From: Pomacea canaliculata
Taxonomy: Eukaryota; Mollusca; Gastropoda; Architaenioglossa; Ampullariidae
DNA length: 64,000 nt
NCBI RefSeq assembly: GCF_003073045.1
Contig: NC_037596.1
Span: 9,379,587-9,443,586, forward strand
Direction of reading: 5' to 3'
The notes below the pieces were generated by a model, which saw nothing but the letters and a program-made list of their open reading frames with translations, searched no databases and was not told where the DNA came from. The first letter of the stretch is position 1, and the number at the start of each line of letters is the position of its first letter. This document shows positions 2,227-64,000 of this stretch, one piece after another. The position numbers and the translations under genes are program-made.

Positions 2227-3448
2227 TAACGCCAGATGTCAGCGGCGAATAAGTGCTCCAAGTGGTTATTTCATCAAGCTGACTGCCTTGCACTTCGATT
2301 TGGAGTCCCTTGACTACCTCGAAGTTTTTGACGGTAGGATTCTTAAATTATCGCATGATTGTCTTGTTAACTGGTTGTCAACGGTGTTATATTTCTTACT
2401 GTTGTTGATGATCTCTGACTATATATCACCTGTGGTTTTGTATTATTTTACCTCCTGTACTATCTTTCATGATAGTGGGGATGCATCCCATCCCCTTCAC
2501 ATCTTCAGTCAGTTTGGCCCACGTCATCTTGAATGACATGTTTCTGGACCACCACAAAACTCATATTTGTCGTTCGGTTTTTGCCATCTCAGTGCCATGT
2601 AACTGTAACAATGTCGGCAACAAAGGTACTAGTTTGTTAACGAGTTCTTTCCAGTCTCTACTTGCCTGCTGTCCGCACCACATAGTTGATAAACAGAGAA
2701 TTCAGAACTCCGCAAAACGCTGCTTTCTCAGGAAAGTGGGATCATGTCATATCTCTTTTCTGTGCTCTCCACTGACCGCCTGTTCAAGTTCAAACTGATT
2801 ACAAGTTGGCTGTGATATGTCATGACTTTTTCTGTGGCTCTCTTCTGTCCCATTGAATGTTTACTATCCTTCGAGATAAATTTGTTTTTCGACAGATCAC
2901 ACTATCTCACACCTGCCATTAGATTGCACCTGATCATTACCTTGTGTGTGTGTCTTTGTGTATGTGTCTGTTACTTTCAGATTGATACTGTATTATTATT
3001 AACACTCTTTTCCAATCAGCTGTATTCTATATTTATTTAAATGTGGCCTGGTATTGTGAAGCAAGGAGAGCTTAGTCACATGCTGTGATTTCGCACTATA
3101 CAAGCAAGATGATGATGGTCGTGAGTATGATTAACAAACGATCTCTTGCTGTAAGTATTTTTTATGGGTATGTTTAATTTGCTGTCCCGGTAAAATGAAT
3201 AAAAAAGCATTGTTAGCTCAGCATATTGTAATGCATAACGTGCATTATTCTTTTTTCAACAAAGTACTAATAAATATTTTTTGTGAAAGGTGAATCGGAT
3301 TCATATCCTAAACTGGACAAATATTCCTTCATGTCCGCTGGAAAGATTTTGTACAGCTTTGGACAGCACATGTTACTCAAGTTTTATAGCGACAGATCTG
3401 TCACTAAATCAGGCTTCAGAATTAGCTACGAAGCTTTGCCATCTTCCG
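2227..3448 (+). CDS. CUB domain 1 (exons B and C)
   Basis: Exon B is 2227-2333 (NARCQRRISAP ... DYLEVFDG) and exon C is 3290-3448 (SFGQHMLLKFYSDRSVTKSGFRISYEA). The signatures are the second CUB cysteine, the acidic-aromatic ending of exon B, and the SD.S....GF...YE motif that closes the fold. The first exon, with the usual SPNYP, is not found between the LINE and exon B and is probably left of the window. Exon C opens with a DSYPKLDKYS stretch unlike the MSASSPLL start of the later copies, and exon B is one codon shorter, so this is one of the older, diverged repeats. The intron between the exons holds a CR1/L2-type LINE remnant. Confidence 0.75.
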
Positions 3449-6400
3449 GTGAGCACAATTCCTTTACCTCGCAATTAGTCTAAGTGTCAACATCTTCCTA
3501 TTGTTTATTGTTTGCTTCAGTGCAATCTTTATTTAAGTGGGACAAACTGGAGAATGGAAAGTACGATTTAGACTACCTGGTCACCCTATTGTCATCTCTC
3601 TGTTTAGCTGATTGTCAGGACATACTTTATCCAAAAGAATATTCTCATCTTTAATATGCCTTATATGTGATCATGAAGTGAAAAGTAAAAGATTTCACTG
3701 AAAGATTTCATACTCAGATTTATATGTGTCTTAGTGCCAGAAGAAGAAATACTCATGAGTCTGTGTGATATAGATGGCAGTAATCACCTGACACAAATGC
3801 AACAACAACAACGTTATGATAACATTAACTGATAAAAAAGCACATTATTATCTGAATATATCAATAATTCAGGTAAATAATATCTAGGAAAGTTTGTTTC
3901 ATCTTCAAATGCATTTTGACAATTTAGAGTGATTTTATAAAAAAAAAATATGGTGGCAGTTTGGCCTCAATTATGACGATATAATATCTTTACTGTCTGG
4001 TGCAGTGTGCTCAGGTGGTCCTTCGCGTCTCAAGTCTGAAGTTGGTCGAGTCGGAATCTTGATGTCACCAAACTACCCGTCAAACTATAACAAGTGAGTG
4101 TAATAATGAAAGTAAATATTACATTCAAAGACTGTTGTTCAAATTGCTAACAAGCGGACATTTGTTATGCTTACAGAAGGAAGTGAGGATATCAGTAAAA
4201 GAAAAAGGTAAACGTTGTTACCAAAGCTGTCCGTGGTCGGGGAGTGAGATGTTAACATGATCTCCCTTCCCTCGCTGTCTTATCTTGCCCAAACTTCTAT
4301 GGAGTGATGTACCTATTACCTACAATTAGTTCCACTGGACACGTTCGTGTTTCCACAGGCATCACCACAGCGCGCTTTCAGGTTCAGAAGCCAGTGATGT
4401 AGCTACTCAACGATCTGGTTCCAGAATTACATCTATAGCATGTTTATACAAACATCTGGACATTATTACATTGAGTAGGTTCCGGCTGGATACTAACGAT
4501 TCATATTACAAATATCTGCCTACAAAATGCAGAGTGGAATCTTCTTCCAGAAGTGGGTCGTTCTGTACACAAAAGTTACCTTAAAGATTAGACTTTCAAA
4601 TGGACTGTCAGATGTGTCCGGATACACGAAAAGTTTATTTCCATTGTTCCGTTGTTGATAGTTTTTTTAATTTGATTCATAAAATTACTTGTTCTTTATT
4701 GTTATTTTATCATATACACAGTACGACCAGGTAACTATCTCTGATCTACAGTAACACCTCTTGTTCGCGTGTGATACAAGCGGACTATAAATATGTCATC
4801 AAAGTCACTGTTTTGAACGCCAGCATGGAACCATGCTGTGACTACGTACAGATGTTTGACGGTAGGGATTTATGTTCACGCTGAAACATTATCACATGAT
4901 TTTTGGTGCTTTTAATGCTCTCTGGTTATCTTTAAAGTATGTCTTGAAATGCATTTGACGGGTGTATCATTTAAAGCAGGGATGCCCAACCTACGGCCCG
5001 CGGGCCATATCCGGCCCGCGACGCGGTGCCATCCGGTCTGCGAAACTTCTGCCCACAGTACAGGAAATCTGCATGTTAGTAATAAAAATTTTTAAAAAAC
5101 GAAAAAAGGGAAGAAGTATTTATCCCCACGTAGGGGCTTTTCCCAATCTTTTTTTCGATGAACGAACATTTCGATTCAGTGCTCCGACTTGGTGTCTCTA
5201 CGATGAGGCCGGACATTCAGAAGTTGGTTTCGGGAAAACAACTTCAAATATCCCACTAATTACTAGATAATTAATGGTAAGTACAACTTGTTTCTAATAA
5301 AAATGGTATCTGATCTATTTTTTTCTCTTTTTTGTATTTTTGCGGTGAAGTGGCCCGCGACACGGCTGTCTGAAATGGATATGGCCCGCAGGCCGAAAAA
5401 GGTTGGGCATCACTGATTTAAAGTAACTATCAAACAGCTTTGCTTCTTTTCCGTTCAAATAATGAACCCAACAAAGCAAATTATAGAAACGTCTCGATTT
5501 TGCATTTTAATTTGTGTTTAATTAGATAAATTTCGAGTGGGTGAGTGTGGCTAATATATTTATAACACAACACATGGTAGCAAACACCTATAACTTAATG
5601 TTGGAACAAATTTACTGTTGCAGGTATGTCTTGTACCTCTTCAGTTCCTACACTGGGATGGTTTTATATGCCATCTAACCCTTTCTACAGTACTGGATAC
5701 TACATGTGCATCAGGTTTGTTAGCGATGGGTCTGTCACGAGCTCTGGCTTTTTATTGACCTACGAGTCAGTGTATATACCTGGTAAGTATCTCTCATTTC
5801 TTCAACTCCTTGTGTAAGTTTTATTATCCGTTTGAGGCTTAGTGCACACTGTTTGTCTTTAGAAATGATGTGTAAAACGAAACTTCATGATTAAATTGTT
5901 ACTAACTTTATTAATCATCAATTGATTCGAGTAGAAAAGTGTAAACACTAGAATGATGCAACTTTTCTGCAGTGTGAAAATTTTACATAGACATCAGCGT
6001 TGTCCACCAGTTTTTGGCCATCATCTGGCAATGACTCCAACAAATTTCAGCGCAAAATGCTGAATGGCTCCTCGGGATCCCAATGAAATGTCAGCAAGAA
6101 TAACGAAATTCACACAATATTATTTTTTTCCTATAAAGGTGGGCGAAGAAGGATGCCAAATATAAACACACCAGAAATTAACTTTGCACTTGCCAGATGG
6201 ATTGATCCATAAATCTTAATCTGGTAGAGAAAGATCCAGTATTAGATATACTCGCCTGTAGGAAGGAATGCGAAATTATCAGTCAAAGATGAGAAGTAGA
6301 GACAAAAAGGAAAAAGAAAAGGAGCGCAAACATGACCTGGCTAAGTTACTCATTGAAGCTGAACTGAATTGTGGAAAAAAAATTTCTGTATTTTTCAGTG

Positions 6401-9400
6401 TGCTCTGTCAGCAGTCCAGCACTCTCTGCTCTTGTCGGGAACATCAGATACCTGACGTCTCCTAACTACCCGAATAACTATTACAAGTACGTTTTCTTGA
6501 AAAACTGAATTCTATGGATTACTGGACAGCATTTTACAACGACATTTACTTGTACACCAGCGTATCATATAAACAGATGTGTTTATAATTTAATAATTTT
6601 TCATGTTTTAGCGATCCTTTGTCACTTGTTCTGAATAGTTGAATCGCTGCAAAATGTTTTTCAGTAAGGAAGACTGTCGGTGGGTGATAACCTCTGCCAA
6701 AAATTTCGTCGTCAAGGTGACTGTTTTAGACGCAGCTCTGGAGAAAAACTACGATTTCGTGGAGATTTTGGATGGTACATTCATTATTAACAGACCATCT
6801 AATTATCATACTATCAAAGCAAGATCGGCTTTTCTCTATGTTCTAAAAATTATATGGGGCCGTAACCTTGTCGTGCGGACATTATACGCACCGCTAACGT
6901 CTAACCTACCGCGAGCTGGCAGGTCACTCGATGTCGCCTCTTTCACCATCTTCATTTGCGTACGTGGTCTTGATACTCCAACCCTAGGGGAACACCTAGA
7001 AAAATACGTGAATGCAAACCAAACCTCGTAATACACGCGCGGGTTTTCCCCAAGAGTCGGAGAAAGACACTTCATTAACAGCTTTTCACATAACGCTGTC
7101 CATGTTTGGTAAGTAAAGTATTTTTGTATTTGATGTTTCCATGATTTTTTGGTGTTTCTATTTATTTATTTGTTTATTTATTTGTAAATAGTATTTGAAA
7201 GGGCAGCAACATCAGTGTCACTGAGAGTGACTAGCAAGCGTGTGAAATCGACTGAAAATAGCCAAAGGTTTGTGACAAAAGCTTATATAAATATAGCGTT
7301 ACAAAGTACTTAGTCAGTAGGTAAAATCACAACATTGGGACTGAAAAACTTTCTATGTACCATTACAATTCAAATAAAATATGCTTAACACTTCTCTATT
7401 TTTATTGTCAGAAATGGATCAGACAGATCAAGAAAATGGACACCCATGTATAAAAAAAATTAAAAAATAAAAAAGAAGCGAGAAAGGGTAACTGTTCAAA
7501 CAAGAAAATCCGAAGAAGAGAGTGATGTCCCTTCGCCTAACGCGCTCGAGGTGTGACTCCTCAACCTCACTTTTCGTATTTGTCAGTTGATATACGTGAA
7601 TTCTGTGTCTAATTTTCATCAGTGCATCTGTTACGATATTTGCTGCATTCATAAATGGATTTCCATGTCTGCACCACATTTCATCTTTTCCTGGACCATT
7701 TATTTAATTCTACTGTCACATCTGCGCCATTTTGCCATTACTTAGATTTGAGATCTGTGTATCGTCAGTGTCGATTTCAAACAATACTTCACAATGTCGA
7801 GCTGTCACAGCAAACTTTGCGTGGAGTACACACCAGTCTGCAATGTTTGACATCGTGTGTCTCCAGGAAGGTCAGTGAAATATGCCGCTCAGACTAATCT
7901 GACTGATGTTTGTTGTCATGCTCGTTATTTTATATATCTTAAATGTGTTTTTGTTTCATTTTTTTTCTTTTCTGTGTTGATAGATTGGAAAAAAGTGTGT
8001 TTAATGAGTTCGCTGACAAATGAAGTAACAGAAAGAAGACCTCAGTTTACCAGGGAATTGCGGATAAACTTGCCACCTCTTGCGGTATAGAACATCGTAG
8101 TGTTTAAGTGCAAGAGAGAAATGAAAGACTTTAAAGTCAGAGACGCAACGAAGGAGCGATAAAGGACAACTTTTTTATATTTTTTTGTTCCTATCATAGA
8201 AGCATCATATAATAAAAATGCGATGAATGTGTAAAGTTTTTTTTTCAGCTAAAAAGGAATTTTATCTCTTTTTGTATACAGCTATCCTTTTCTATTCTCA
8301 TTAGGAATGATAGACTGATATTATGTTCTGATTTTATCGTATTGTGCTCACAATAACGATGTTGTAGCAATATTTAATTTTTATTTTTCAAGATAAAAAC
8401 AAAGGCCAAGACACATTTGTAGTGTATGTGTGACATTGCGACAACGATTCGCAATTTCTAACTCTCCTTGTAAATCCTGGATGTCATGGCGTCGAAATCT
8501 TAATCGTTGATAGAGGGCTAAGTCGTCCCATGCATCGATGGGATTGGTCCGATCTTGAATTACTCTGTTTCTGGGAAAGTTTCTTTCCGTTTCCGTTAGA
8601 GGAGAGGAGAGCCGTCTCTACTTTCGAGGGCAGATCGGCCGCCGGGAGGGGCTGGAACTTCAAAGAAATCTCACACTTTGACGTACTTAAAAAACGCAAC
8701 CGACCTTTGCCGACCAATAAGTAGTTTCGCGGTGCGAAAATGGTTACGGCCCCAGGTCTCTTCAGTTTATATGTACACAATGGCATAAAAACAACAGTTA
8801 TAAAGAGAAATTACTAATTACTATTTTTCTTAATTTAATTAAATGATTAACCACTCAAGAAAATCAGTATAATGCTAGTTGAAGCTAAAATTTGACCAAA
8901 AATTACTTAAATCACTCACAAATGTCGTTTAGGAAGTATAAGACTAACATACGGTTCTGTCTAAGGTATGTCGGCTTCATCACCTTTACTTGTCAAGTTC
9001 TCCGAAATGCCCAGAGATACAGTTTACTACAGCTCTGGACAGCACATATTTATCAGGTTTTTCAGCGACACCTCTTTCACCAAAATGGGCTTCAGACTAA
9101 CCTACGAGGCTGTAGATGAACACCATAGAACGACACCTGGTCAGTTTATCTCCCTTTTGCACAGAATTAGTGTAAAATGAACAACATTCAATCAAAAAGA
9201 AATACTAGCTTGAACTATACCTACTTTTATCTTATTGCCACCACACTTTCACAGAAGTTCTTAAAATGATTACACATTCCCACTTAACTTCTAAAAAGAA
9301 AGGCGGCTTCCTTTCTATTTAGTATAACATGACCAAACTTAGTATTCGTCAGGGTTGTCCATGGGACATATTTTTCTATCCCGTCCCAGCCCATCCCATG

Positions 9401-12400
9401 GCAATTTATGCCTGTCCCATCCCGTCCCATCCCACGGGATGTTTCCCATGGGATTCCCATTGTATTAACAATCCTATGGACAACACTGAAAACCCCTTTT
9501 CGCTTTTGTTCTATAATTCCTGCTACTTCACTACAATAGATGATTCAGAGGAAAGATTTAAATCCTTGATGAATGAAATAACAGTAAATTTATTTTGCAA
9601 TATCAAGTATCGACTACCATGGGAAATACAAATGTGTGCTGTCCCATCCCATCCCATCCCATGGGACGTTTCCCATGGGATTCCCATGGGATTCCCATTC
9701 CTATGGACAACACTGGTATTCGTGCATTGAAAATAATCGTATGTTGCTTTAACGTCATTTTCCTTTCTTATTTTCTTAAAAACGACACCAACATAAAAAA
9801 AACTGTTACAACAACAGGTAAGTCAAAATTTAAATAAAAAGCTAAACGAAGAAACAAAAAGCCTTTATGCCACCTTCCGCTGAGTAGATTTTAGTATTTT
9901 AAAATCCTTTTCTTCACCCTGTCTACCAAAAAATTTGCCCACACATTGGTTTTAGTGCTCACGGAGGATGCACTAATACCAAAGCGATCTGAGAGATCTG
10001 TTATTAACAGACCAAGTCTCAGAAAGACATCTCTGCTAATTTGCGATTAATTCTTTTTTTAGATTATTTTACAGGATCGGTGAACAGCACTACTTGGGAA
10101 GTCACGGAAGAAGGTAAGAGCAGTTACAATAATCTCTTTCCTTTACGTTTATATAAATTGAGTGTTGTCATTAATCATATTCAACAGTTTCCATTGTGTA
10201 CAATTAAAACGCTTCATCAGGGCTTCTGCTAAGGCTAAATTCTTTGGGGTCCCAGGGACCCCTTCTTCAGATTTCTAAGGGGTCCCAGGCTAACTCTAAG
10301 GGGTCCCTTTACAAAGTTTAAAAAAAAAACAACAAATCAACATACATGTACTTTGTTCAACTGCCTTTCAGGCACACAAAGCACTGTAATGTCTAGTCAG
10401 AAACGGCGAGATTTCTGTGCCATGAAAAGTGTGCAAGCATCTGTGATGAGCTTATGCTCACTGTACTTGTGGTGCTCACTTTCTTTCCGTTTCTGAGACG
10501 ATGATTCTAACCACGCTGTCAACGACATCTTGGAACTCTTCCCGGTAAGGGAAAAAAAAACCTCAGTGCAGGGGAAGTAACTCTCACCTTGTAGCAGACG
10601 ACAACAATAGATTGGGCTACGATGTCAGACCTACACTAACCCAATTTTGTATCTGTTCTTCGCCCAAATTTGAAGGGGTCCCCTGAGACCCCATTGACGA
10701 AAATTGAAGGGGTCCTCCGAACTTTTAATGCGTACTGTACGCAATTTTTTGCGTAAGCAGACGACTTGATCATTATTCTAAAACACAAAATATTTCCCAC
10801 TACTTTCATTTTTGGAGTTTTTTCGTTAGCTTTGTTTTTCTCATATTCGTGCGTGCGTGTGTGTAAGACAGTGTTATTAACTGTTTAGGTCTACAGTTCT
10901 GACCTAAATACGTTGCATGCATAGCTTACAGAAAACAATAACCATTGTTGAAGAGTGCCGAGTTAGATTAAATTAAATACTCACCAATGATTTGTTAAAT
11001 GTGGATTCAGCTTTCATTTTTATTTGAAGAACATGAGCTGTTCTTTGATATTGTTTGTATTAAACGATTTGTCTATGTCTGAAAATTATTTTTCTTTCTT
11101 TCTCAGATGAGACACCAACATACAACTATTTTACGACAACAGGTGAGTTAAAAATAAAGAAGACAGGAGCCGTTCACGCGGCCGTTGTGAAGAGACCAAT
11201 TTACGACTGCACATCACTACACAAATATTATGTTTACCAATGACTGACTCCTTGTCATTGAATATACAGTGACCTTAATAAGCTTAACACGGGATATATA
11301 AAGCTCATATGTTTGTGATGTTTATTCACTTAGAAGACATTTCTGCTAATTTTGGATTTATTTTCTTTGTAGATCATACAACAGAAGCTGCAGATAGCAC
11401 TACTTCAAATTACACGGGTGAAGGTAGGAGTATAGCTCTAATGATTTCCTTCTATATTCCTCTTAGTAGAAGAACCAAAGATAATCTAAGCAGAATGAAT
11501 TGTTTATCTCACTCTTACTGTGGTTCCATTTACTATCTTTCTCACACACAGACACACACTTACATCAATGCACGCACCATATCGCGTGTTTTCTTAGCAT
11601 CTGTACAAATATCAGTGACGAGCAAATAAATTCACAGATTGACTTAATTCTTATGAGGATTTCTTTTAATTAATTCCTTACTTACATGCTTCTTTGCTTT
11701 TCTAAGCAACGACTGACCCTGTTTACTATCAACATAATCTTCAAAGTATTTAGTAGGATTTTAGGAAAGGAGAAGCCTTCAGACCAATTTCAAATATTTC
11801 ATTTCCCTTCTTTAAAAATGTCTATTTAGTTTACCTTTTTGAACTTGCAGAGCTGTGCTGATTGGATGAGACATGAGAACGTTTCCTAACCTAGTCAATT
11901 ACTCCTTTTACTTTTTTAAAAATTGATTTTAACGGTGTCCATCAATCGTACGTTTCTCACTATTTCCTATTTCACTATTTCTCACTAATTACTTTTTCTA
12001 AATGTATTTTAATGATGATGATACAATGTCGACACTTTTCAGTGTGCCCTGTCAACGATACAACACTTTCTGCTGTTTTCAATGAAATCGGTTACCTGAT
12101 GTCACCTAATTACCCGAGTGACTATTACAAGTAAGTATATTTTTCTAAAATAGTGTTTTTTTCCAAATGGATAACACAACAAAGAGATGCAGCGGCAAGA
12201 TGCAGTGAAATTTGGGCGTACAGCAGCTTATAATATAATATAATATAAAATAATATTTAATATTTATTATTTATGACATGAAAAAATGTTTACCTTTTCA
12301 GTGTGTTTTCTTGTATAATTAAATGATTTGTTATGTTTTGGCATTGCGTTGTCACATGTAGTGACTAGTTAAGTCAGTGCCAAATATTTTGCAGCAACGC

Positions 12401-21400: not shown

Positions 21401-24400
21401 ACTCTGTTACAACAACGGGTGAGTCAAAAAAAAAAAAGAAGAAAGGAGCCGTTCACGCGGCAGTTGTGAAGAGATCAGTTTACGGCTGCACATCACTACA
21501 CAAATATTATGTTTACCAATGACTGACTCCTTGCCATTGAATATACAGTGACCGTAATAATCTTAACAGAGGATATATAAGGTTCCCAGTCACTTAATCC
21601 CCAGACACTTCATCCCCGACATTTAATCCCCGACACTTCATCCCTAAACTAAATCCTTAACTAAAAAAATTTAATTCAAATTCAAATCATGCTATTAACT
21701 TCAACGTCATTTGAACATCTACAACATTAGTTAAAGTTTATATAAGCTAGTAAATTTAATGTTCTTTAACAATATATACAGTATATACGGATGCTCGAAG
21801 TAGGATAGAAGTCCCGGCATGCGATCATGTTGTGGCATTGACTCTGCAAGCAATTCGAAGGAATCGATAATGTTTTTCTCACATACATAGGAAAGTGCTG
21901 GGTGGCATCTGACTATTCCACGTCACTCGTCGTCTTCGTCATCGTCACTTTTCATCCCCTGTTCAGTGACTTTGCATAATACCGCCTGACTTCAGCGTTA
22001 CTTTACATGACTAAAAGCGGTCATCGCAGCTTTCTCAAAGTCTGTTACTATTGTCTCTGGAGCTGCATTAGGCATTAGCTCTCTAACTGCATCCAACAAT
22101 CTATTATAGGTTGCACTTGATTTATAAGGATTAAGTGTCTGGGGATGAAGTATCTGGGGATTAAGTGACTGGACACCGATATATAAATCTCCTATGTTTG
22201 TGATGTTTATTCACTTAGAAGACATTTCTCCTAATATTCGATTGATTTTCTTTGTAGATCATACAACAGATTCTGCTGATAGCACTACTTCAAAAGTTAC
22301 GAGTGAAGGTAGGACTATCGCTCTATTGATTTTCTTCTATATTCCTCTTAGTAGAAGAACCAATGATAATCTAAGCAGAATGAATTGTTTATCTCACTCT
22401 TACTATGATACCTTTTACTATCTTTCTTACACACAGACATACACTTACATCAATGCACGCACCAATCGCGTGTTTTCTTAGAATTTGTACAAATATCAGT
22501 GACAAGCAAATAAATTTACAGATTGACTTAATTCTTATGGGGTTTTTGTTAATTAATTCCTTACTTACGTGCTTATTTGCTTTTCTAAGCAACGACTGAT
22601 CCTGTTTACTATCAACATAATCTTCAAAGTATTTAGTAGGATTTTAGGAAAGGAGAAGCCTTCAGACCAATGACAAATATTTCCTTTCCCTTCTTTAAAA
22701 ATGTCTATTTAGTTTACCTTTTTGAACTTGTAGAGCTGTGCTGATTGGATAAGACATGAGACCGTTTACCTAACCTAGCCAATGGCTCTTTTTACTTTTT
22801 TAAAAGTTGATTATAATGGTGTCCATCAATCTTTCGTTTCTCACTATTTCCTCTTAACAATTACTTTTTCCAGATGTATTTTAATGGTGATGATCATATA
22901 ATGTCTACACTTTTCAGTGTGCCCTGTCAACGATACAACACTTTCTGCTGTTGTCTATGAAATCGGTTACCTGATGTCACCTAATTACCCGAGTGACTAT
23001 TACAAGTAAGTTTATTTTTCTAAAATAGTTTTTTTCCAAATGGATAACACAACAAAGATGCAGCGGCAAGATGCAGTGACATTTGGGCGTACAGCAGCTT
23101 ATAACATAAGTACACATTTATGACATAAAAGAAAGTTTACCTTTTCAGTGTGTTTTCTTGTCTAATTAAATGATTTATTGTGTTTTGGCATGCGTTGTCA
23201 CATGTAGTGACTAGTTAAGTCAGTGCCAAATATTTTGCAGCAACGCCAACTGTCGGTGGATAATAAGCTCTGCCAGTAATTTAGTCGTCAAGGTGACAGT
23301 CTTAGTCGCCAGTATGGAGATAAACTACGACTACGTAGAGATTTTTGATGGTAACTTTCTTGAATCCTACTTTAGCTCAAAATTATAATGATTTTTTTTT
23401 GTCTTTCTGCTGCAGACTATCTTGCCTCTCTAGTTTGAACTCGTATGATGGCACGTGAAGATGCAATTTGAAGAGTTAAAACTGATTCTTCATTACTTTA
23501 TTTGCATTAAATGGTAAACATTTGAAAGAAAATATATCTCTGCAGTTTTAGTTGTCGTCGTACAAACTGAACACTCTGTTAGTTGATTTGTAAAGACGAC
23601 TAGCTAGTCACTTGATTCGCTTACAAATGTTGTTGGAGAAATAATAAACACAACACACGGGTATGTCGCAGGTATGTCGGCTTCATCGCCTTTACTTGTC
23701 AGGTTCTATGGAATTCCCAACGATACAGTTTACTACAGCTCCGGACAGCACATGTTCATCAAGTTTTTTAGCGACGGTTCTGTTACTAACTCGGGCTTTA
23801 TGCTAACCTACGAGGCCGTGGATGAACAGCCTGCACCGACACCTGGTTAGTTTGGCTCCCTTTGCTCACAATTAGTGTAGCATCAGTATTTAGTACCTAC
23901 CTCGCCTTCACGTAACATTCTCTTTTTTTTCTTTGCTTTCTTTTTAGGTCCTATTGAAAACACATTCGCATAATGATGACACAATTTTCCCATAATTGCC
24001 ATGATTAGAGGCGGATTTTTTATATTTTAAATTTTTAGGTTCGTTGCATGAGTTGCATCAAAAAATGTCGTTTGTATTTAGCATCATTTTCTTTTTCTAA
24101 TATCTTTAGATACGACACCTACAGCCACATTTGTTACTACAACAGGTAAGTCAAAATAAAGAAGTAATGAAATAAACATTTTTGACAGTTTGATGTTTCA
24201 AAAAATCTTAAGTCAAATTAAAAATCTTATTTTATGATACAATATGTTAGGGAATAATATCAAATCCTGAGACTCGAAATGAAGTCATATATGTTGAACC
24301 CTTCGAGCAAAGAGGATTCTTTACTTGGAGATATTTATAACCTGAAAAAGGAATTGCTCTGTTGGTAGTACGTCAATGTTTGCATAATTTATTTCGCACC

Positions 24401-27400
24401 GTAACATAAATCTGTATCCCCCGTCCGTGTTGTAACATTCTGTCAACGTAGGACACAGCGAGGTTTTGATTTCATATAACTTTGTCACTTATAGTTACAT
24501 CGTTTCTATCTTGCTAATAATATTATGTCGATGTGGATGATACGGTCAGAAACAAAGAAATTAATTGCTATATGAATATTGTATATCATCACAGGCACTG
24601 TAACATGTAGATAGTCTGAAAATATCCATGTCCATTTTCTGTACTACAGATTCTCTAACTTAGGTTTCGAGGAGTACAGATTTCATTCTGAAATGGAAAT
24701 ACCACTTTTTAGGTTGATCTAATCGAATGGGTCTCTGATTTTTTGTTTTTCCAGACACTTTTTACATAGCTTATATGTGCATCCTGGTCTTATTATTTTA
24801 TTTGTTATTAAATTTTTCTTATGCTTAGATGTTCCTAGAACACACGTCTGAGTTTGAGTGTTCAGTGCAAATTTTTCTAAAGCATAAACAAAGGCATGTA
24901 CACACGCCAAAGACATAACCAGATAATTTACCCACATGTAGGTATTTCACAGTACATGTGCTATATAATAAAACATTGAGGTACAAAATGTTGGAAACTA
25001 TATTTATATCTTTAAATAAAGATTTTTTTCCAGGTGAACTTGCTGACATGCAGGTGATTCCAAGTACTCTGCGTTTGAGTGGTGTTAATCAGTCTGTTCA
25101 ACTTACTTGTAGCATTCCAAGTACCGCTACTGTCCAGTCTGTGTATGTTATGACAATGTCCCGCATCACAAGCTCACAACCTTACCAAGAACAGACCCTA
25201 GCTTTCGCTGGTGCAGAGTCTCCACAGGCAACATTGGTTCCAGCTTCAGAAGGGGGTCTTCCAGCTAATTCAGCAACAGTTTCAGGTGGTGTAACTCAAA
25301 AATCAATTCAGGTGATTCTCAGACAACCGGACTGCAAAGATGCCGGTGTGTATCACTGTTCCATTATGTATAATAGTGGAACTTTTACTCAACCAGATCC
25401 GAAGGTTCTGGATGAGTCTGAGAATTTGACAGTCACGGGTAAGTCCTTTTTTACGTTTTATTATTTACTGTCAGCTAAGAATTAAGAAATCTGATTACTA
25501 TCTTTGACATTCGATGGTTAAGTGCGCGAACTACCAGTGATCTTTGCAAAGATTTAAAAAAATGATATCAGAACACACTTAAAATGTGGAAAGTAGCCTT
25601 GGCCCAATCTTGGGACACGCTTGTACATACACTCAAGATAAATGCATGTGCTGTCTCACACTGGACTCACACTTTCGTAATCATCATCATCGTCGTCGTC
25701 ATCATCATCGTCATCATCATCGTCGTCGTCGTCATCATCAATCATCAATCATCATCATCATCATCTGAACAATTAGAAAATGTATTCAATGTCTTTGAGA
25801 CTTCACGGCTGTCATCATCAAATATCGCTCTTAGCCGTTTACCAGTAGTCATCTACAACATAACCGTTTAATCAGTCAAGTATATTATAAAGAGACGAAA
25901 CTGCAACAAAGACTTATGTTTATTTATTAAAAGTTTAATCGTCATCAGTCATCTTCAAACCATGCACTCGTGAGGAAAGATGTTCTGAAAGTAAACTTAA
26001 TCATCAGTTTATAAATTTATTTATTAATTTCAGTTCCACCTGGCAACATCACTATATCAGTTTCTCCTGACAATGAAATCAACGTAGCCAACACGACTGT
26101 GGAATTGTTATGTAATGCAGTTATTGGCGTTTATGATCAAGCAACAAAGGTATTTTATAATTCTTAAAATAATACCTTAATTAAATGATTAAGTCTTCTA
26201 GTAGAATTTCAGGATCGATCCTAATAAAAATGATTTATACAGTCCCATTATATGATGCACGTAATTCATGCTCATAGTCATCGCGCTGACTCTTCCATCA
26301 CATATACCTTTTCTTCAACTTTTTCTTCTCCTCCTATAACCGATATCGGAGGTATCAGTTGTAGGGGTGAGACACAATTGGATGCAGCATGGGTGAACTC
26401 ACGCCACTGGGGCCGGTCATGCGCCCGTGAGAGAAGGTTCCCGAGCGGATAGCCGGTCTGATCCTTCCCGTTAGTTCCTCAGCCTTTTTTCTGCTTGCTT
26501 TGTCATCGACTTTCGCGTGATCCTGGAGAACCGTCTGTACAAACAGTTCGGATTATTCGGCCGCCGACAGCCTACATTTCTCCTAGTTCTGAAAAAGCTG
26601 CCACTTTACTAGCGGATAATTAATTAACGGATGCGTTTTGGAAGCTGAACTTTACATGTTAGGTTTATATTGCTTATATCTACCAATATCTTAAACATTC
26701 AAACCATTCAGGTTGGTCTTTAAAGGACCGCACCTGCTTCAGCTGTACTCCGTTTATTCTGACCTCTGCTTTGCTAGATCCAGTGGTTTTCATCGTGACT
26801 ATTTTTCTAGGTGCTGATCTCCATTCCTTAGGCTCCGCACTGGTGGCGAGTTTGTCAGCGACGGTCTGTAACTCACTATTGCTGCCCGCCGCCAGACCGA
26901 TGTCATCGGCAAAGCGGAGGTTATTGAACCGATCTACACGGAGGTGGGATAGTCCTAGAGGGTAACCCGCATGATTTGTCTGCAGGTAGATGTTAAATAG
27001 CGCTAGGATAAAGATCAACCCCTTGAGCACATCAACCGTTATGGGAAAGAGCTCAACACTCGATCGGTTGTTGAAGAATAGTGATCTCATGGAGCCGTCG
27101 TACAGTGCCTCAGTGGTGCATACAATGCCTTCTTCAACATTAATATCCATTGCATAGCCCATTACCCCTCGTGCCAGGCTCTATTGAAAGTCTGTTTGAA
27201 GTCGATAAAGTTATTATATAGATCCTTGCCGCGCTGCACGTGCTTTTCAATGATAGCATGCTGCTGTACATTTGTTGAGCAGTGCTTCTTCCAGCGACGC
27301 GGAATCCGTTCTGTTCTTCTTCTGGCAGCTCCTCCGCCGGAGGAGTTATGTGATTCTGGTTCACTTTCACTATACCTTGCAATCAGTTCTTATCATTCGT

Positions 27401-30400
27401 CTTTAATATTTTACCAGCTCCTGTAGTTTATTTCTTTTTATCTCAGAACACTGAGGAATGGACCTGGGAGTTCAATGATAAGATGTACGGATGGCGCACA
27501 TACACAAAGGACAGCGACATCAGAAAGGACACACCTATCCAAGTGCCAGGCACATGTTACTATCGTCAGGTCTGCTATCTTACACTCCTCCTCACACCTG
27601 ATGACTCCAAGAGAGAATACAGGTGCTCAGTGGAAAACAATGGGGATAAAGATTCAGCCTCTCTCACTCTTGGAATAGTCAATGAAGATGGTAAGTTATT
27701 AGAAATGTTATAAGAACTTCCTCTGTAGATCTTTGAAGCTGACAGTTGTTCTAAATATTTCAATCAAAGGGTAGAACCATCTTTTTGAAAAAAATATGCT
27801 CAAAGGGAAAGAGCATAAAGCTCAACAAAACGAAAGTGTTAAATAATAAAAAATATTTATTCGGTTCTAAACAACCTTGATGCAAATTAAGTTTGTACAG
27901 ATCCTTTCCACTAAACTATGCATTTCCTACATTAAAGAAATGTTGGAAACTAATTTTCTACAAGGTTTCAGGTAATGCTTACAAAGATTCAGCATGTTTA
28001 ACAAGACTGATGAATATTTCTCAGATCACTGGCATCTCTTAAACTTTCGGACTCTTCCCTGGTACATCCTGATGTTTGCTAAATGAATGCTGGACAAATA
28101 CAAATATTGGATGTTTCGATAATGTATAACAGATTACATTTTACCTAGAATGGTGGAAATTCTGTCGGGTAGTTGATTTAACACTAACAAACCGGTCAAA
28201 ATGATTGAAGGAAATTTTTGTTTTAAACTCTGTGGATTAAAGTTATTTTTATTGTTATGATTATATAATAATTTCAGTATATACCTGTATATACCCTGTT
28301 CTTTAGAAACCCATCTAAACATACAATTTATTTAGTATCCTTGCATTGAGCCATATAAATCACTTCATGAAAATGTTGGACATAAAGTAAGTAGTGTGAT
28401 CAAAAGCTGGTTGTAAAATTACAATTAAAGTTGGCACAGAAAAACAATCACAAATCAATCCAGGCAGTGTCGAATATCCGAGCTAGTAGATACTGAATAT
28501 CATGCACTATCAGTCTGTTCACTCTGACTTTGGTCATACAAAAGCTGGATACATCCATAGCTTTTAACACCTTTTAAAGATATAGTCTTCTATTTTAGTT
28601 TAATGTCTACCATTAATGGTAAATATTTTATCTAGCTTTCATTTTTATTATTTCAGGCATTGCATCAACCCAAACTTCATCAACTGAGAGTAAGTTGTTT
28701 TAATCGGCTTTAAGTTTTATCCAGTTTACAAAACTTAATATGTATTGATGAAGCTATAGTGGTTATGGCAAGATTAAGAATAATAGGGACTAAAGCAAGG
28801 CAGACAATGTAGCAATTACCTGCACGTTCAGTTTGCTCTTATGACACTCGAATTGTAGGTGAATTTTAAAAGAGATGTGGTTTTTGTTTCAGTTTAGTGT
28901 CTATACAGCAATAAAGAATATGGCACGCATGCAAGCACGAACACGCACAGAGGGAAAGGTTACAAATACAGGCTTGTCGGTGGGGGGTAGTTACTGACAG
29001 GGCAACGACCACGTGACCGAAGGAGAGCGGGAGGGAGGAGCCTAGTGACGGGATGGAGGTGCAGGGATGTTTTTGAGATAAGTAGGATGTGAAGGTCGGG
29101 TGAAGAGGGCAGCAGCACAGCACGTGAGGGGACAGCCAGAGGTGAGAGCTACGACTCATCGAAAGCGCGAGTGTGTGACGTGGATGATGCGCCTGAGCCA
29201 GAACTATCGACTGGCCTGGCACCTAAACCCACGACAGTGTTGACTTGTGTTTATTATAGTGAGACGAGGCAAACAACTCCTGTCTACCCTGTTACATCAA
29301 CTACAAATGGCAAAAATTTTTAACAGTTCTCTTTTCTTTATTATTTCAGGCATTGCATCAACTCAAGCTTCATCAACTGAGAGTAAGTTGTTCTATTCGG
29401 CTGAAAGTTTTATTCAGTTTACAAAATTTATGAAGCCCTAGCGGTTATGGTAGGAATAATAGGGACTAAAGCAAGGGAGACAATGCATTAACTATTTGCT
29501 GTAAAAAAAATTGTGAATGTTAGTTTTCTCTGATATGACACTCGAATTGTAGGAGAACTTTGACAGAGATGAGAGTTTTATTTCAGTTTAGTCTCTACTA
29601 CAAATGGTAAAAATGTTAAACAGTTCTCATTTCTTTATTATTTCAGGCATTGCATCAACTCAAGCTTCATCAACTGAGAGTAAGTTGTTCTGGTCGGCTG
29701 AAAGTTTTATTCAGTTTACAAAATTTATGAAGCCCTAGCGGTTATGGTAGGAATAATAGGGACTAAAGCAAGGGAGACAATGCATCAACTATTTGCTGTA
29801 AAAAAATTGTGAATGTTAGTTTTCTCGGATATGACACTGGAATTGTAGGGGAACTTTGACAGAGATTTTTATTTCAGTTTAGTGTCTACTACAAATGGTA
29901 AAAATGTTAAACAGTTCTCATTTCTTTATTATTTCAGGCACTGGATCGACCAAAACTTCATCCACTGAGAGTAAGTTGTTCTGATTGGCTAAAATATATA
30001 TCCAATTTACAGTATATATCTGTAATTATATATATATTGATGAAACGTTAGTGGTTACGGTAAGAGTAATAGGGACTAAAGAAAGGTAGAAAATGTATCA
30101 ATTACCTGCTGCAAAAGATCGTGCAGGCGCAATTTGCTCTGTTATGACACTTGAATTGTAAGTGAATTTTTAAATGTTCAAGTGTACTATTCTGCTCACG
30201 CTTTAGTTCTTCGTGCATCCACATACTCAACAAACGCACACATATTGGCATTGTTTTGGCGTTTCAATGGTTTCAATACTGGCATTTTCTTTGTGTCTCA
30301 CACACACACACACAGACTTGCCGTCATCGGACACATACTTCAGTGTTCATTAATCTCAACGCAGACACAAGCAGTGATCCAGTATTTTAATTCAGTCTGC

Positions 30401-30666
30401 ATAACAAGTGTGCAGTTTGTATTGCTATAATTTTAATGTGTTTTATTATAAGTAACGAAATTAAAAGTTTTATTTTATCTAAAACTTGTTTCATTTTAAT
30501 ATGTATGAATTTTTGTGCTGAATTTTACGTATTCAAATTACATTTGATTTTGATTTTACTTTAATTTCCAGGCTATAGTTCAGCCACTGATACCATTGCT
30601 GACCACGCGATTCTCTGTCTCGTTGCTTTTGTATCTCTGATTGTGATGATACAAACTGGACCCTAA
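2227..30666 (+). CDS. Multi-CUB, two-Ig, probably GPI-anchored surface protein (gene 1; 5' end outside window)
   Basis: One large mosaic gene. Order: CUB1 (first exon missing), CUB2, CUB3, three linker exons, CUB4, four linkers, CUB5, four linkers, CUB6, four linkers, CUB7, one linker, Ig1, Ig2, four 33-bp stalk exons, hydrophobic terminal exon. All exons have GT/AG borders and their phases close in frame, giving 1,389 complete residues in the window. There is no stop, poly(A) signal or convincing signal peptide between CUB7 and Ig1, so I join them; without transcripts the join remains inference. CUB and Ig domains are extracellular protein or glycan binding modules. The C-terminus (SYSSATDTIADH, then a hydrophobic run to the stop, no basic tail) resembles a GPI-attachment signal. 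The likely role is cell-surface recognition or adhesion, possibly immune. The alternative is two genes, CUB and Ig, that lost a boundary between 24.1 and 25.0 kb. Confidence 0.7.
2550..3130 (+). mobile_element. CR1/L2-type LINE 3' remnant
   Basis: Residues encoded near 2645-2745 (SLLACCPHHIVDKQRIQNSAKR...FLRK) match the conserved part of CR1/L2-group reverse transcriptases that reads like SLLAGCP..L.DKLQ.VQNSAAR in intact members. The end, near 3070-3115 (cttagtcacatgctgtg ... cactatacaagca), resembles the short 3' tail of such elements. The copy is broken and lies in the CUB1 B-C intron. A better preserved relative lies at 59.5-60.7 kb. Confidence 0.6.
4006..5782 (+). CDS. CUB domain 2 (exons A, B, C), cysteine-rich
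   Basis: Exon A is 4006-4093 (VCSGGPSRL ... ILMSPNYPSNYN), exon B is 4752-4861 (NTSCSRV ... EPCCDYVQMFDG) and exon C is 5624-5782 (MSCTSSVPT ... YYMCIRFVSDGSVTSSGFLLTYES). This is the only CUB here with more than the first cysteine pair: it keeps a Cys-Cys before DYV, as expected for the third canonical CUB cysteine, and Cys in exon C that can pair with it. It is therefore closest to a standard four-cysteine CUB. The intron between B and C holds a hAT-like element. No linker exon separates it from CUB1 or CUB3. Confidence 0.85.
4977..5415. mobile_element. Non-autonomous hAT-like DNA transposon (439 bp)
   Basis: Ends are inverted repeats: cagggatgcccaacctacgg on the left and, read from the other strand, cagtgatgcccaacctt on the right, each followed by a ggcccgc-rich segment. 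A perfect 8-bp direct repeat, atttaaag, flanks it at 4969-4976 and 5416-5423. The 8-bp duplication and CAG...CTG termini fit hAT. No transposase is encoded, so it must have been moved in trans. It sits in the CUB2 B-C intron. Confidence 0.88.
6399..9139 (+). CDS. CUB domain 3 (exons A, B, C)
   Basis: Exon A is 6399-6486 (VCSVSSPALS ... YLTSPNYPNNYY), exon B is 6665-6774 (KEDCRWVITSA ... NYDFVEILDG) and exon C is 8966-9139 (GMSASSPLLVKF ... SSGQHIFIRFFSD ... GFRLTYEAVDEHHRTTPG). It has only the first cysteine pair, like the four amplified copies downstream, and its exon C already has their MSASSPLL start and Thr-Pro end. It is thus the likely template or closest relative of the amplified cassette. 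The 2.2-kb B-C intron is much longer than in the others (about 320 bp) and may contain an inserted DNA element. Confidence 0.87.
6853..8757. mobile_element. Possible decayed DNA transposon with inverted ends
   Basis: A 13-base word, tggggccgtaacc, at about 6854-6866 recurs in inverted form as ggttacggcccca near 8740-8752, and both copies are followed on the inner side by TCG/CG-rich bases. The interval corresponds to the extra length of the CUB3 B-C intron over its sisters (about 1.9 kb). I saw no matching target-site duplication and no recognisable transposase, although a short open stretch starting MDQTDQENGHPC occurs near 7414. Weakly supported; it could be two chance matches in a long intron. 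Confidence 0.35.
9350..9715. mobile_element. hAT-like MITE with CCCAT satellite-like core (366 bp)
   Basis: The termini cagggttgtccatggg and, inverted, cagtgttgtccatagg flank a core made of repeated tcccat / atggga words that can fold back on itself. The 8-bp duplication gtattcgt lies at 9342-9349 and 9716-9723. Sister introns in the cassettes keep an uninterrupted ...cgtgcattgaaaa at this point, so the insertion is visible by comparison. There is no coding capacity. Confidence 0.85.
9780..9817 (+). pseudogene. Dead linker exon (type E)
   Basis: This aligns with the 36-bp type E linker exons at 13269, 16630 and 20406 (ETTPQDIPV.TTG). Here the acceptor tcag is replaced by ttaa, the unit is 38 bp instead of 36 and the reading frame meets TAA. 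The donor gtaag survives. It should be skipped in splicing, which does not disturb the frame because the intact exon is phase 1-1. It lies in its expected place after CUB3. Confidence 0.75.
10063..11423 (+). CDS. Linker exons F, G, H after CUB3
   Basis: Three phase 1-1 micro-exons: 10063-10113 (DYFTGSVNSTTWEVTEEG), 11107-11142 (DETPTYNYFTTTG) and 11373-11423 (DHTTEAADSTTSNYTGEG). They are rich in Thr, Ser and acidic residues with an N-glycosylation-type NST and several TT runs, fitting an extended, O-glycosylated spacer between CUB3 and CUB4. Each has an AG acceptor and a gta/gtg donor. The same order recurs after CUB4, CUB5 and CUB6. The first intron of the block holds a hAT-like element. 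Confidence 0.8.
10220..10764. mobile_element. Non-autonomous hAT-like element rich in ggggtccc (545 bp)
   Basis: The insertion interrupts an intron sequence that is continuous in the sister cassettes (...ttaaaacattccattattctaaa). Flanking 8-bp repeats cttcatca (10212-10219) and cttgatca (10765-10772) differ at one base. Ends are imperfectly inverted (gggcttctgctaaggc against tcgtctgcttacgc). Inside are several ggggtccc and gggacccc words near both ends that form hairpins. No ORF of note. The mismatched duplication suggests it is older than the 4977 and 9350 elements. Confidence 0.7.
12043..12997 (+). CDS. CUB domain 4 (cassette 1)
   Basis: Exon A is 12043-12130 (VCPVNDTTLSAVFNEIGYLM, then SPNYPSDYY), exon B is 12395-12504 (NANCRWIISSA ... 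ASMEINYDYVEIFDG) and exon C is 12824-12997 (GMSASSPLLVRF ... SSGQHMFIKFFSDGSVTNSGF ... EAVDEQPAPTPG). Only the first CUB cysteine pair is present; the positions of the usual second pair are Asn before DYV and Ser in MSASS. Exon C reads YGFPTITVYY where cassettes 2-4 read YGIPNDTVYY: one base is missing and one gained a few bases later, so the frame is restored. The domain ends in a Pro/Thr stretch that leads into the linkers. Confidence 0.9.
13269..14914 (+). CDS. Linker exons E, F, G, H of cassette 1
   Basis: Four phase 1-1 micro-exons: 13269-13304 (ETTPQDIPVSTTG), 14112-14162 (DYFTGSVDSTTWEVTEEG), 14597-14632 (DETPTHNSVTTTG) and 14864-14914 (DYTTEAADSTTSNYTGEG). Together they give 58 residues of Thr/Ser-rich spacer to the next CUB. 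All have AG acceptors and gtgag, gtaag or gtagg donors. Sizes alternate 36 and 51 bp, and E resembles G while F resembles H, suggesting the four-exon linker itself arose by doubling of a two-exon pair. Confidence 0.83.
15436..16366 (+). CDS. CUB domain 5 (cassette 2)
   Basis: Exons are 15436-15523, 15763-15872 and 16193-16366, the same sizes (88, 110, 174 bp) as in the other cassettes. Exon A reads SAVVYEIGYLMSPNYP; exon B has ASLEINYDYVEIFDG and looks identical to exon B of cassette 3 by eye; exon C has YGIPNDTVYYSSGQ. The open frame is intact and two cysteines are present, as in its neighbours. NDT in exon A and NDT in exon C are potential N-glycosylation sites. Confidence 0.9.
16630..18599 (+). 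CDS. Linker exons E, F, G, H of cassette 2
   Basis: Exons are 16630-16665 (ETTPQDIPVTTTG), 17787-17837 (DYFTGSVDSTTWEVTEEG), 18268-18303 (DETPTHNSVTTTG) and 18549-18599 (DHTTEAADSTTSNYTSEG). All are open with normal splice borders. A minus-strand SINE sits in the intron between E and F. The composition again predicts an extended O-glycosylated spacer. Confidence 0.83.
16766..17085 (-). mobile_element. tRNA-derived SINE, full length
   Basis: Read on the minus strand it starts gcggcccggtggcgcaacgg, with a tRNA-like A box (ggcgcaacggttagcgc) and, about 50 bases on, a weak B box (ctgagttcatttctcg), and it ends in an A-rich tail (seen as the T run at 16766-16788). A perfect 12-bp target duplication, agactgtacagt, lies at 16754-16765 and 17086-17097. 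Cassette 1 has the empty site at about 13389-13400, with one copy of the same 12 bases. The insertion therefore postdates the cassette duplication. Confidence 0.92.
19209..20141 (+). CDS. CUB domain 6 (cassette 3)
   Basis: Exons are 19209-19296 (SAVVWEIGYLMSPNYP), 19534-19643 (NANCRWIISSA ... ASLEINYDYVEIFDG) and 19968-20141 (MSASSPLLVRFYGIPNDTV ... EAVDEQPAPTPG). Exons B and C look the same as in cassette 2 apart from rare bases. The most variable spot among the four cassettes is the residue pair before EIGY in exon A: FN, VY, VW, VY for CUB4 to CUB7. Confidence 0.9.
20406..22308 (+). CDS. Linker exons E, F, G, H of cassette 3
   Basis: Exons are 20406-20441 (ETTPQDIPVSTTG), 20890-20940 (DYFTGSVDSTTWEVTEEG), 21383-21418 (DETPTHNSVTTTG) and 22258-22308 (DHTTDSADSTTSKVTSEG). 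The E-F intron is shortened compared with cassettes 1 and 2, and the G-H intron carries a 597-bp DNA element. Linker H is the most changed of its type (SAD for AAD, SKV for SNY). Confidence 0.83.
21581..22177. mobile_element. TIR element with 9-bp target duplication, perhaps Mutator-like (597 bp)
   Basis: The ends are ggttcccagtcacttaat and, inverted, ggtgtccagtcacttaat, followed on both sides by alternating 'acttaatcccc / acttcatcccc' words. A perfect 9-bp duplication, gatatataa, flanks it (21572-21580 and 22178-22186); sister introns have it once. No transposase is encoded. A 9-bp duplication and long TIRs fit a Mutator-like MITE, but the superfamily is inference. Confidence 0.8.
22918..23845 (+). 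CDS. CUB domain 7 (cassette 4)
   Basis: Exons are 22918-23005 (SAVVYEIGYLMSPNYP), 23241-23350 (NANCRW ... ASMEINYDYVEIFDG) and 23672-23845 (MSASSPLLVRFYGIPNDTV ... EAVDEQPAPTPG). Exon A matches cassette 2, while exon B shares Met with cassette 1 where 2 and 3 have Leu, a mosaic pattern expected from unequal exchange or conversion. It is the last CUB. Past exon C the cassette similarity fades and a different linker follows. Confidence 0.9.
24110..24145 (+). CDS. Single linker exon between CUB7 and Ig1
   Basis: A 36-bp phase 1-1 exon reading DTTPTATFVTTTG, with acceptor tttag and donor gtaag. It resembles linker types E and G but is diverged, and no F or H exon follows. It passes phase 1 to the Ig1 exon, which supports CUB and Ig lying in one transcript. 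Confidence 0.72.
24146..25033. other. Intron between CUB part and Ig part; no feature recognised
   Basis: About 890 bp, AT-rich. I looked for a promoter, a poly(A) signal in good context and a signal-peptide exon, and saw none that convinces. An in-frame ATG at 24985 gives MLETIFISLNKDFFPGELAD, which is not a signal peptide and runs through the Ig1 acceptor. Confidence 0.45.
25034..25438 (+). CDS. Ig-like domain 1 of gene 1 (single exon)
   Basis: A 405-bp phase 1-1 exon. It starts GELADMQVIPSTLRLSG, has the first core Cys in QLTCSIPSTATV, and ends with PDCKDAGVYHCSIMY and a NLTVTG border. DxGxYxC is the classic Ig V/I-set signature around the second core Cys. The Trp usual in strand C is absent. 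A further Cys five residues before the signature aspartate pair's tyrosine region (PDC) is conserved in all four Ig1 copies of the window. NQS and NLT are potential glycosylation sites. Homologues are at 33.8, 41.3 and 49.5 kb. Confidence 0.88.
25676..25767 (+). repeat. Trinucleotide microsatellite (atc/gtc)
   Basis: Runs of atc interrupted by gtc units over about 90 bases in the Ig1-Ig2 intron. Open frames across it (poly-Val/Ile or poly-His) are artefacts of the repeat. Confidence 0.9.
26034..27690 (+). CDS. Ig-like domain 2 of gene 1 (two exons)
   Basis: Exon 2a is 26034-26149 (VPPGNITISVSPDNEI ... ELLCNAVIG, phase 1 to 0) and exon 2b is 27447-27690 (NTEEWTWEFNDKMYGW ... GTCYYRQVCYLTLLLTPDDSK, then REYRCSVENN, phase 0 to 1). 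The first Cys is in ELLC, the core Trp in EWTWEF and the closing Cys in YRC. An extra GTC...C pair lies in between. The intron inside the domain is phase 0 and at the same place in all four genes, so the split is ancestral. A minus-strand RTE LINE fragment fills most of that intron here. Confidence 0.88.
26290..27395 (-). mobile_element. RTE-type LINE fragment in the Ig2 intron
   Basis: On the minus strand, 27390 down to 26690 encodes LPEEEQNGFRVAGRSTAQQM, then EALYDGSMRSLFFNNRSS, and NLRFADDIGLAAGSNSELQ with the FADD catalytic motif of reverse transcriptase. These are the same blocks as in the LINE at 1-1292. Frame breaks are present and the 5' half (endonuclease) is missing. The stretch 26290-26680 beyond the RT may be its 3' part or another repeat; its rather GC-rich look differs from the host intron. 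Confidence 0.8.
28657..29970 (+). CDS. Four 33-bp stalk exons (11-residue Ser/Thr repeats)
   Basis: Exons are 28657-28689 (IASTQTSSTES), 29350-29382 and 29647-29679 (IASTQASSTES) and 29938-29970 (TGSTKTSSTES), each phase 1-1 with acceptor atttcag and donor agtaag. Units 2 to 4 repeat with their introns about every 291-297 bp, a tandem duplication of a micro-exon. They give a 44-residue Ser/Thr-rich stalk before the membrane-anchor exon, probably O-glycosylated. Exon number can vary without a frame effect, so stalk length may differ by allele or splicing. Gene C has the same exon type at 63665. Confidence 0.85.
28890..29262. mobile_element. Unclassified insertion between stalk exons 1 and 2
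   Basis: The sister stalk introns read straight from gtctcta into ctacaaatgg, whereas here about 370 bp of more GC-rich sequence intervenes (about 28893 to 29265). It has no coding potential and no clear SINE promoter boxes. Its ends allow a solo long terminal repeat as one reading, but this is only a guess; family and age cannot be given. Confidence 0.45.
30572..30666 (+). CDS. Terminal exon: GPI-type or membrane tail and stop
   Basis: It encodes SYSSATDTIADHAILCLVAF followed by a few more hydrophobic residues, ending IQTGP and TAA at 30664-30666. Small residues (SSA) precede a hydrophobic run of about 16 that reaches almost to the end with no basic cytoplasmic tail, the usual form of a GPI-attachment signal. 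A single-pass anchor with a very short tail is the alternative. The acceptor ttccag is normal and the phase matches the stalk exons. Confidence 0.8.
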
Positions 30667-36300: not shown

Positions 36301-36447
36301 TCAATAATTATGTATCTATATAAATATATAGCAAATTTTATGGCCATTATGTATCTAGCTCTATAATAAATATCATTAGATGTAATACATCGACATTTTT
36401 CAGACACCTGCACGTGTACATGCATCTACACCTGTCCATCCCCGTGA
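33381..36447 (+). CDS. Gene A: secreted two-Ig protein with Cys-rich tail (302 aa)
   Basis: Seven coding exons: signal peptide 33381-33435 (MALSVLVIVAFTITCITR), Ig1 33810-34199, Ig2 34638-34744 plus 35199-35442, two small spacer exons 35902-35934 (AYRPSIPAYLT) and 36176-36211 (YITTPAPNVNAE), and tail 36404-36447 (NTCTCTCIYTCPSP, stop TGA). Lengths sum to 303 codons. There is no membrane segment, so the protein should be secreted. Four closely spaced cysteines in a 14-residue tail could cross-link subunits into dimers or multimers; that is inference. The Ig pair is homologous to those of gene 1, B and C. The start is supported by the conserved signal peptide in gene B and the TATA box upstream. 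A role as a soluble recognition molecule is plausible, not shown. Confidence 0.85.
33810..34199 (+). CDS. Ig-like domain 1 exon of gene A
   Basis: A 390-bp phase 1-1 exon starting AHAQLQINPKELELTDD. The core cysteines are in VVISCAAPPGV and EDAGLYLCSIMY, with the extra conserved Cys in PKC just before EDAG. The strand-C Trp is absent, as in the other Ig1 copies. The loop GVNQGLPTFEPHTDLTQY is where the paralogues differ most in sequence and length. Confidence 0.88.
34638..35442 (+). CDS. Ig-like domain 2 exons of gene A
   Basis: Exons are 34638-34744 (VASGNITASVSPNLEF ... TLKCIAIVG) and 35199-35442 (DKWNWTWEYHDGMAW ... PGTCTYLQ ... KQYRCTWQKN). The split position and phase are the same as in gene 1, B and C. 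The core pair is KC and YRC with Trp in WNWTWE, and NWT is a potential glycosylation site. Confidence 0.87.
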
Positions 36448-63697: not shown

Positions 63698-64000
63698 GTA
63701 AGTTGTCCTGCCAGGCTGAAGTTTTTGAAGTTTGCATAACCAAATAACTTATAAGCCACAGACAGTGTTTACAGTAGGAATAGTAGGCAGTTAAGTCAAG
63801 GCAGACACTTTATCAATTACCTGTAGACGTTCTCCTCCTTTGAGAACGACTTCTGGCCTTGGCGTCGAACGTCTATCTCTCACAGGTAGGGCAAGTCCGG
63901 GTTGTGGCCCTTTGCTTTCCATGGCGACAGAAGACATACTGACAATTCCTCGTCACCGACTCGCCCCTTTGCTCAAGGTTCACTTGCAAGCTATAATAAT

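Follow-up and report, generated by a model that had tools for sequence, protein, structure and literature searches.

A probable single gene joining a CUB array to a V-type Ig pair in the gastropod Pomacea canaliculata

The best known snail recognition molecules have Ig domains joined to lectin domains. The present locus of Pomacea canaliculata raises the question of whether an array of CUB domains and the pair of Ig domains that follows it belong to one gene or to two. The stretch of contig NC_037596.1 analysed here (64,000 nucleotides) is referred to as the window. In the first-pass annotation the locus was read as a single CUB-Ig-Ig-stalk-GPI gene. The locus, gene 1, very probably is one gene, and that architecture is still the best supported reading of the sequence, by virtue of the repeat structure and because no candidate end or start exons were found from CUB7 to Ig1.

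The gene 1 model was rebuilt independently as 44 exons on the plus strand (2227-30666) that chain in phase. Exons were placed by tblastn with local peptides and splice sites were read directly: acceptors are AG in 44 of 44 cases and donors GT in 43 of 43. The joined exons yield 1,390 residues with a single stop, at the end, which bears out the earlier description of an open, phase-compatible run closing in frame, though not its length of 1,389 residues. The exons comprise 20 CUB exons, 16 linker mini-exons, three Ig exons, four stalk mini-exons and one terminal exon. A complete CUB is made of three exons, of phases 1-2, 2-1 and 1-1; phase 1-1 is shared by the linkers, the stalk exons and Ig1, and the two Ig2 exons are 1-0 and 0-1. 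The product carries 18 N-glycosylation sequons. The features, all on the plus strand, are as follows.

2227-3448, +: CUB1, partial; exons B1 2227-2333 and C1 3290-3448, exon A absent from the window
4006-5782, +: CUB2; exons A2 4006-4093, B2 4752-4861, C2 5624-5782; Pfam CUB
6399-9139, +: CUB3; exons A3 6399-6486, B3 6665-6774, C3 8966-9139; Pfam CUB
10063-11423, +: linker mini-exons of unit 3; D3 10063-10113, G3 11107-11142, E3 11373-11423; Thr/Ser-rich, phase 1-1
12043-12130, 12395-12504, 12824-12997, +: CUB4; Pfam CUB; whole unit 4 12043-14914
13269-13304 (F), 14112-14162 (D), 14597-14632 (G), 14864-14914 (E), +: linkers of unit 4
15436-15523, 15763-15872, 16193-16366, +: CUB5; whole unit 5 15436-18599
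16630-16665 (F), 17787-17837 (D), 18268-18303 (G), 18549-18599 (E), +: linkers of unit 5
19209-19296, 19534-19643, 19968-20141, +: CUB6; whole unit 6 19209-22308
20406-20441 (F), 20890-20940 (D), 21383-21418 (G), 22258-22308 (E), +: linkers of unit 6
22918-23845, +: CUB7; exons 22918-23005, 23241-23350, 23672-23845; Pfam CUB
24110-24145, +: linker F7, final linker of the array; the next phase-1 exon in the model is Ig1
25034-25438, +: Ig1, V-set-like, single exon, phase 1-1
26034-27690, +: Ig2, two exons; 26034-26149 (phase 1-0), 27447-27690 (phase 0-1)
28657-29970, +: stalk, four 33-nt mini-exons; 28657-28689, 29350-29382, 29647-29679, 29938-29970
30572-30666, +: terminal exon; hydrophobic GPI-type tail and stop

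Positions 1-2226 contain neither a tblastn match to CUB1 exon A nor a signal-peptide-like 5' exon detectable by the scan for first exons with hydrophobic leaders, and a reverse-transcriptase-like fragment, recognized by eye, occupies 1-1300 of the plus strand, where exon A and the 5' end would be expected. Gene 1 therefore starts outside the window, with six complete CUBs and one partial CUB inside it. Of the seven CUB domains previously counted, six thus stand as complete, and CUB1 retains only its last two exons (B and C). The first residue of the model is set by an exon beyond the window.

Assignment of the CUBs is secure at the level of Pfam. The CUB family (PF00431; cut-off 21.4) gives 235.5 bits in four stretches of residues 1-560 (E 9.7e-71) and 74.7 bits for CUB7 in residues 925-1390 (E 8.7e-21); these scans covered 1,026 of the 1,390 residues, and the part left out, 561-924 (CUB5, CUB6 and linkers), consists of near copies of CUB4 and CUB7. 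A Glu-Asp-Asp set, which we take to be the calcium site of cbCUBs, is visible in all seven CUBs. The linkers and stalk are 39-61% Ser plus Thr. From unit 4 onward exon A recurs every 3.4-3.8 kb, with copies at 12043, 15436, 19209 and 22918. An extra Cys pair in CUB4-7, present in the first peptides, was rejected, as use of the acceptor after TTTTGCAG places it in the intron. Two other observations concern the intervening DNA: a short open frame on the minus strand between linkers G6 and E6 (21998-22210) resembles a transposase fragment, and repeats at 9284-9822, with HPMG/MGIPWE-like peptides on both strands (open reading frame list, by eye), probably represent either a simple repeat or a mobile element.

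Downstream of gene 1 the Ig pair recurs in three further genes.

33381-36447: gene 2; signal peptide, Ig1, Ig2 and short Cys-rich end (DTCTCTCIYTCPSP)
40812-44660: gene 3; signal peptide, Ig1, Ig2 and short Cys-rich end (DTCTCSCVFNCLRP)
Gene 4: Ig1, Ig2 and stalk mini-exons resembling those of gene 1; no end found before the window stops

The earlier claim that the neighbours carry the Ig pair without CUBs agrees with genes 2, 3 and 4, in which candidate signal exons are present; to the right of 23.85 kb no tblastn match to a CUB exon is better than E 0.19. Given their signal peptide, Ig pair and short Cys-rich end, genes 2 and 3 probably encode secreted products, and the Cys-rich ends perhaps allow disulfide-linked multimers. 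Read in the phase-1 frame, their terminal exons (36404-36447 in gene 2, 44617-44660 in gene 3) retain both the cysteines and the stop. A copy of linker E at 38046 was considered as a clean gene 2 exon and rejected, its matching borders having no AG or GT.

The two Ig domains attributed to gene 1 hold as exons, and Ig1 also as a V-type model, but their Pfam matches, though significant, score below gathering (V-set 22.5 of 26, E 1.4e-4; Ig_2 22 of 27). Of the three Ig1 domains scanned, those of genes 1, 2 and 4, just that of gene 4 passes the V-set (PF07686) gathering score of 26 bits, with 26.3, gene 2 scoring 19.2. A structure model of Ig1, for which the four paralogues were aligned, is of moderate confidence (mean pLDDT 69.8; range of five models 43.7-69.8). 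Compared with the PDB, its best E is 3.6e-05 with a TM of 0.56, and the 50 matches listed are by title antibody V domains and nanobodies, at a modest TM of about 0.46-0.61. The model thus points to a V-type beta-sandwich fold for Ig1. A PDB sequence search with the Ig pair returned nothing convincing (best E 0.015), and the Ig1 of gene 1 shares 36-43% identity with the other three. On the minus strand of the intron between the Ig2 exons, at 26680-27180, a reverse-transcriptase-like fragment was seen by eye.

Beyond the Ig pair, the stalk mini-exons sit within short diverged repeats common to genes 1 and 4 (28571-30174 and 62863-63823), so that the stalk is probably a product of local duplication. 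The terminal exon at 30572 is hydrophobic and, by eye and by hydropathy, fits a GPI-type signal, in which small residues precede the hydrophobic end and a cytoplasmic tail is lacking; the product is putatively GPI-anchored.

How the CUB and Ig parts are connected depends on the interval between CUB7 and Ig1. Agreement of phase is weak evidence for a single gene, because extracellular modules are commonly of 1-1 phase; the repeat structure and the absent end and start exons are stronger. Alignments of units 4, 5 and 6 to unit 7 all extend to 24154, and the repeat array therefore stops nine bases after F7. F7 has a good donor, and no Thr-rich mini-exon was found between F7 and Ig1 by a scan that recovered all 16 linkers but just two of the four stalk exons. 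F7 would thus be spliced to Ig1, and the link from CUB7 to Ig1 has good support, though short of proof.

Compatible with a single gene, and possible if rather doubtful, is the production of alternative transcripts, in which the full GPI form would be accompanied by shorter, soluble CUB-only or Ig-only forms arising from retained introns or internal promoters. A stop lies immediately behind the donors of C4, C5, C6 and C7, and the fifth codon after the F7 donor is also a stop, so that CUB-only products could be made by intron retention. An internal start could be furnished by a hydrophobic, signal-like ATG exon with a strong donor (9703-9817), but in unit 3 the relic F linker, which is without an acceptor, overlaps with this exon, and polypyrimidine tracts before exons would encode hydrophobic residues by chance.

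It is unlikely that the locus instead holds two genes, a CUB array ending near 23.85-24.16 kb and an Ig-pair gene, carrying a signal peptide of its own, that begins before 25.03 kb. The stops soon after the C7 and F7 donors would suit such a division, as would an AATAAA right after the F7 donor, and the signal scan places candidates upstream of Ig1 in all three downstream genes (33381 in gene 2, 40812 in gene 3, 46855 or 49409 in gene 4). That same scan, however, detects no signal-peptide-like first exon in 23848-25035; in the whole window it gives nine matches on the plus strand and, as background, two on the minus strand. It is poorly specific, four of the nine plus-strand matches (7943, 9703, 29307 and 35400) lying at no modelled gene start. 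An in-frame ATG does precede Ig1, at 24988, with a leader that is not signal-like. Nor does a scan for hydrophobic terminal exons, which has five matches in the window including 30572, give any in 23846-25033, although it missed the short Cys-rich ends of both gene 2 and gene 3 and would overlook other kinds of 3' end. The good F7 donor, with no further linker exon found, also argues against a division. A possible trace of an earlier arrangement is the start of Ig1 in gene 1, GELADMQ, in which ELA is like a signal-cleavage site, a resemblance that would also suit two genes; the paralogues have AHAQLQ, GLAQLQ and GFAQLQ beside their signal exons, as if Ig1 of gene 1 had once followed a signal exon of its own.

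That assembly error created false duplicates of a CUB unit, or that the units are decayed pseudogene copies, as stretches of units 4-7 that are 84-95% identical to each other might suggest, is highly improbable in view of 44 exons without stop or frameshift, exons less diverged than introns, and introns that differ between units by 7-12%, above expectation for false duplicates. In all six pairs among units 4-7 the divergence of exons A-C (1.1-4.0%) is lower than that of introns (6.9-11.6%); five of the pairs give a Fisher p<0.001 and the sixth 0.051, the pairs not being independent. Among CUB4-7 dN/dS is 0.10-0.95; when CUB3 is compared with each of these four, it is 0.58-0.69. Together, the lower exon divergence and the dN/dS values fit moderate protein-level constraint on the array rather than decay.

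The explanation preferred with good confidence is therefore a single gene with at least seven CUBs, the later ones separated by Thr/Ser-rich linkers, followed by a pair of V-type Ig domains, a stalk of Thr/Ser type and a GPI signal, its 5' end outside the window. By exon shuffling, one gene of a tandem Ig-pair family would most likely have acquired a CUB array, fused in phase 1 to its Ig1 exon in place of its own signal-peptide exon, and the CUB-linker unit would have been tandemly duplicated; the order of these steps is one that we infer. The most likely function of the product is that of a GPI-anchored receptor in recognition or adhesion. CUBs with putative calcium sites, together with glycosylated spacers, could keep ligand-binding surfaces off the membrane, and the Ig pair might bind the same partners as the probably secreted paralogues next door, or compete or assemble with them. 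Calcium binding and an immune role are likewise putative. More tentatively, gene 1 could represent a lineage-specific class of gastropod surface receptors, in which the V-type Ig pair of a recognition cluster received an expanding CUB array, varying in length between individuals, to give one anchored member among secreted ones. If the preferred explanation is true, the V-type Ig pair is a portable module, found here with a CUB array amid secreted-looking neighbours, and the anchored receptor can be compared with soluble relatives. The near identity of the CUB units makes copy-number variation directly testable.

Comparison with known systems places gene 1 among familiar parts. The best matches of CUB7 to sequences of solved structures are cubilin (E 7.7e-38, for the whole multi-CUB chain) and neuropilin-2 (E 4e-22). 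Cubilin and neuropilin have CUBs like CUB7, to which gene 1 adds Thr-rich mini-exon linkers and an Ig pair, and their overall architecture is unlike that of gene 1. Pattern searches for relatives of Ig1 gave 17 matches in genome contigs and 30 in viral contigs, and that with a CUB exon 40 in viral contigs, with none confirmed; this is expected for an animal gene and has no bearing on molluscs. Rfam (gathering scores) and ARAGORN (bacterial code) gave no matches. Among the open-licence literature matches listed, no title names a CUB-Ig receptor of this kind.

MASP-like proteases have few CUBs and are soluble, whereas gene 1 has at least seven CUBs, a V-type Ig pair and a GPI-like tail. The first-pass annotation went too far in calling CUBs with an Ig pair a new combination, because some MASP-like proteases of arthropods, molluscs and annelids are described as having two Ig domains beside their CUBs, as in gene 1, together with a trypsin-type protease domain (PMC11312191). 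Pfam scans of 1,026 of its 1,390 residues, taking in the whole C-terminal part, give no EGF or protease match for gene 1, whose 5' end lies outside the window. In the FREPs, one or two Ig domains described as V-type (IgSF1, IgSF2) are combined with a fibrinogen domain (PMC7588048). By published descriptions, gastropod VIgL proteins (FREPs, CREPs, GREPs) carry one or two Ig domains after a signal peptide, and the neighbour genes a signal peptide and two Ig domains; gene 1 differs in its CUBs N-terminal of the Ig pair and in its stalk and GPI-like tail. Residues 925-1390, the C-terminal part, give no fibrinogen, C-type lectin or galectin Pfam match at E up to 1. As far as scanned, gene 1 thus has neither the lectin-type domain of VIgL proteins nor the protease of the MASP-like group. 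Gene 1 stands apart in its long CUB array, with no EGF or protease match in the residues scanned, in its linkers of Thr-rich mini-exons, and in having a V-type Ig pair together with a GPI-like tail; the architecture is a new variant built from known blocks.
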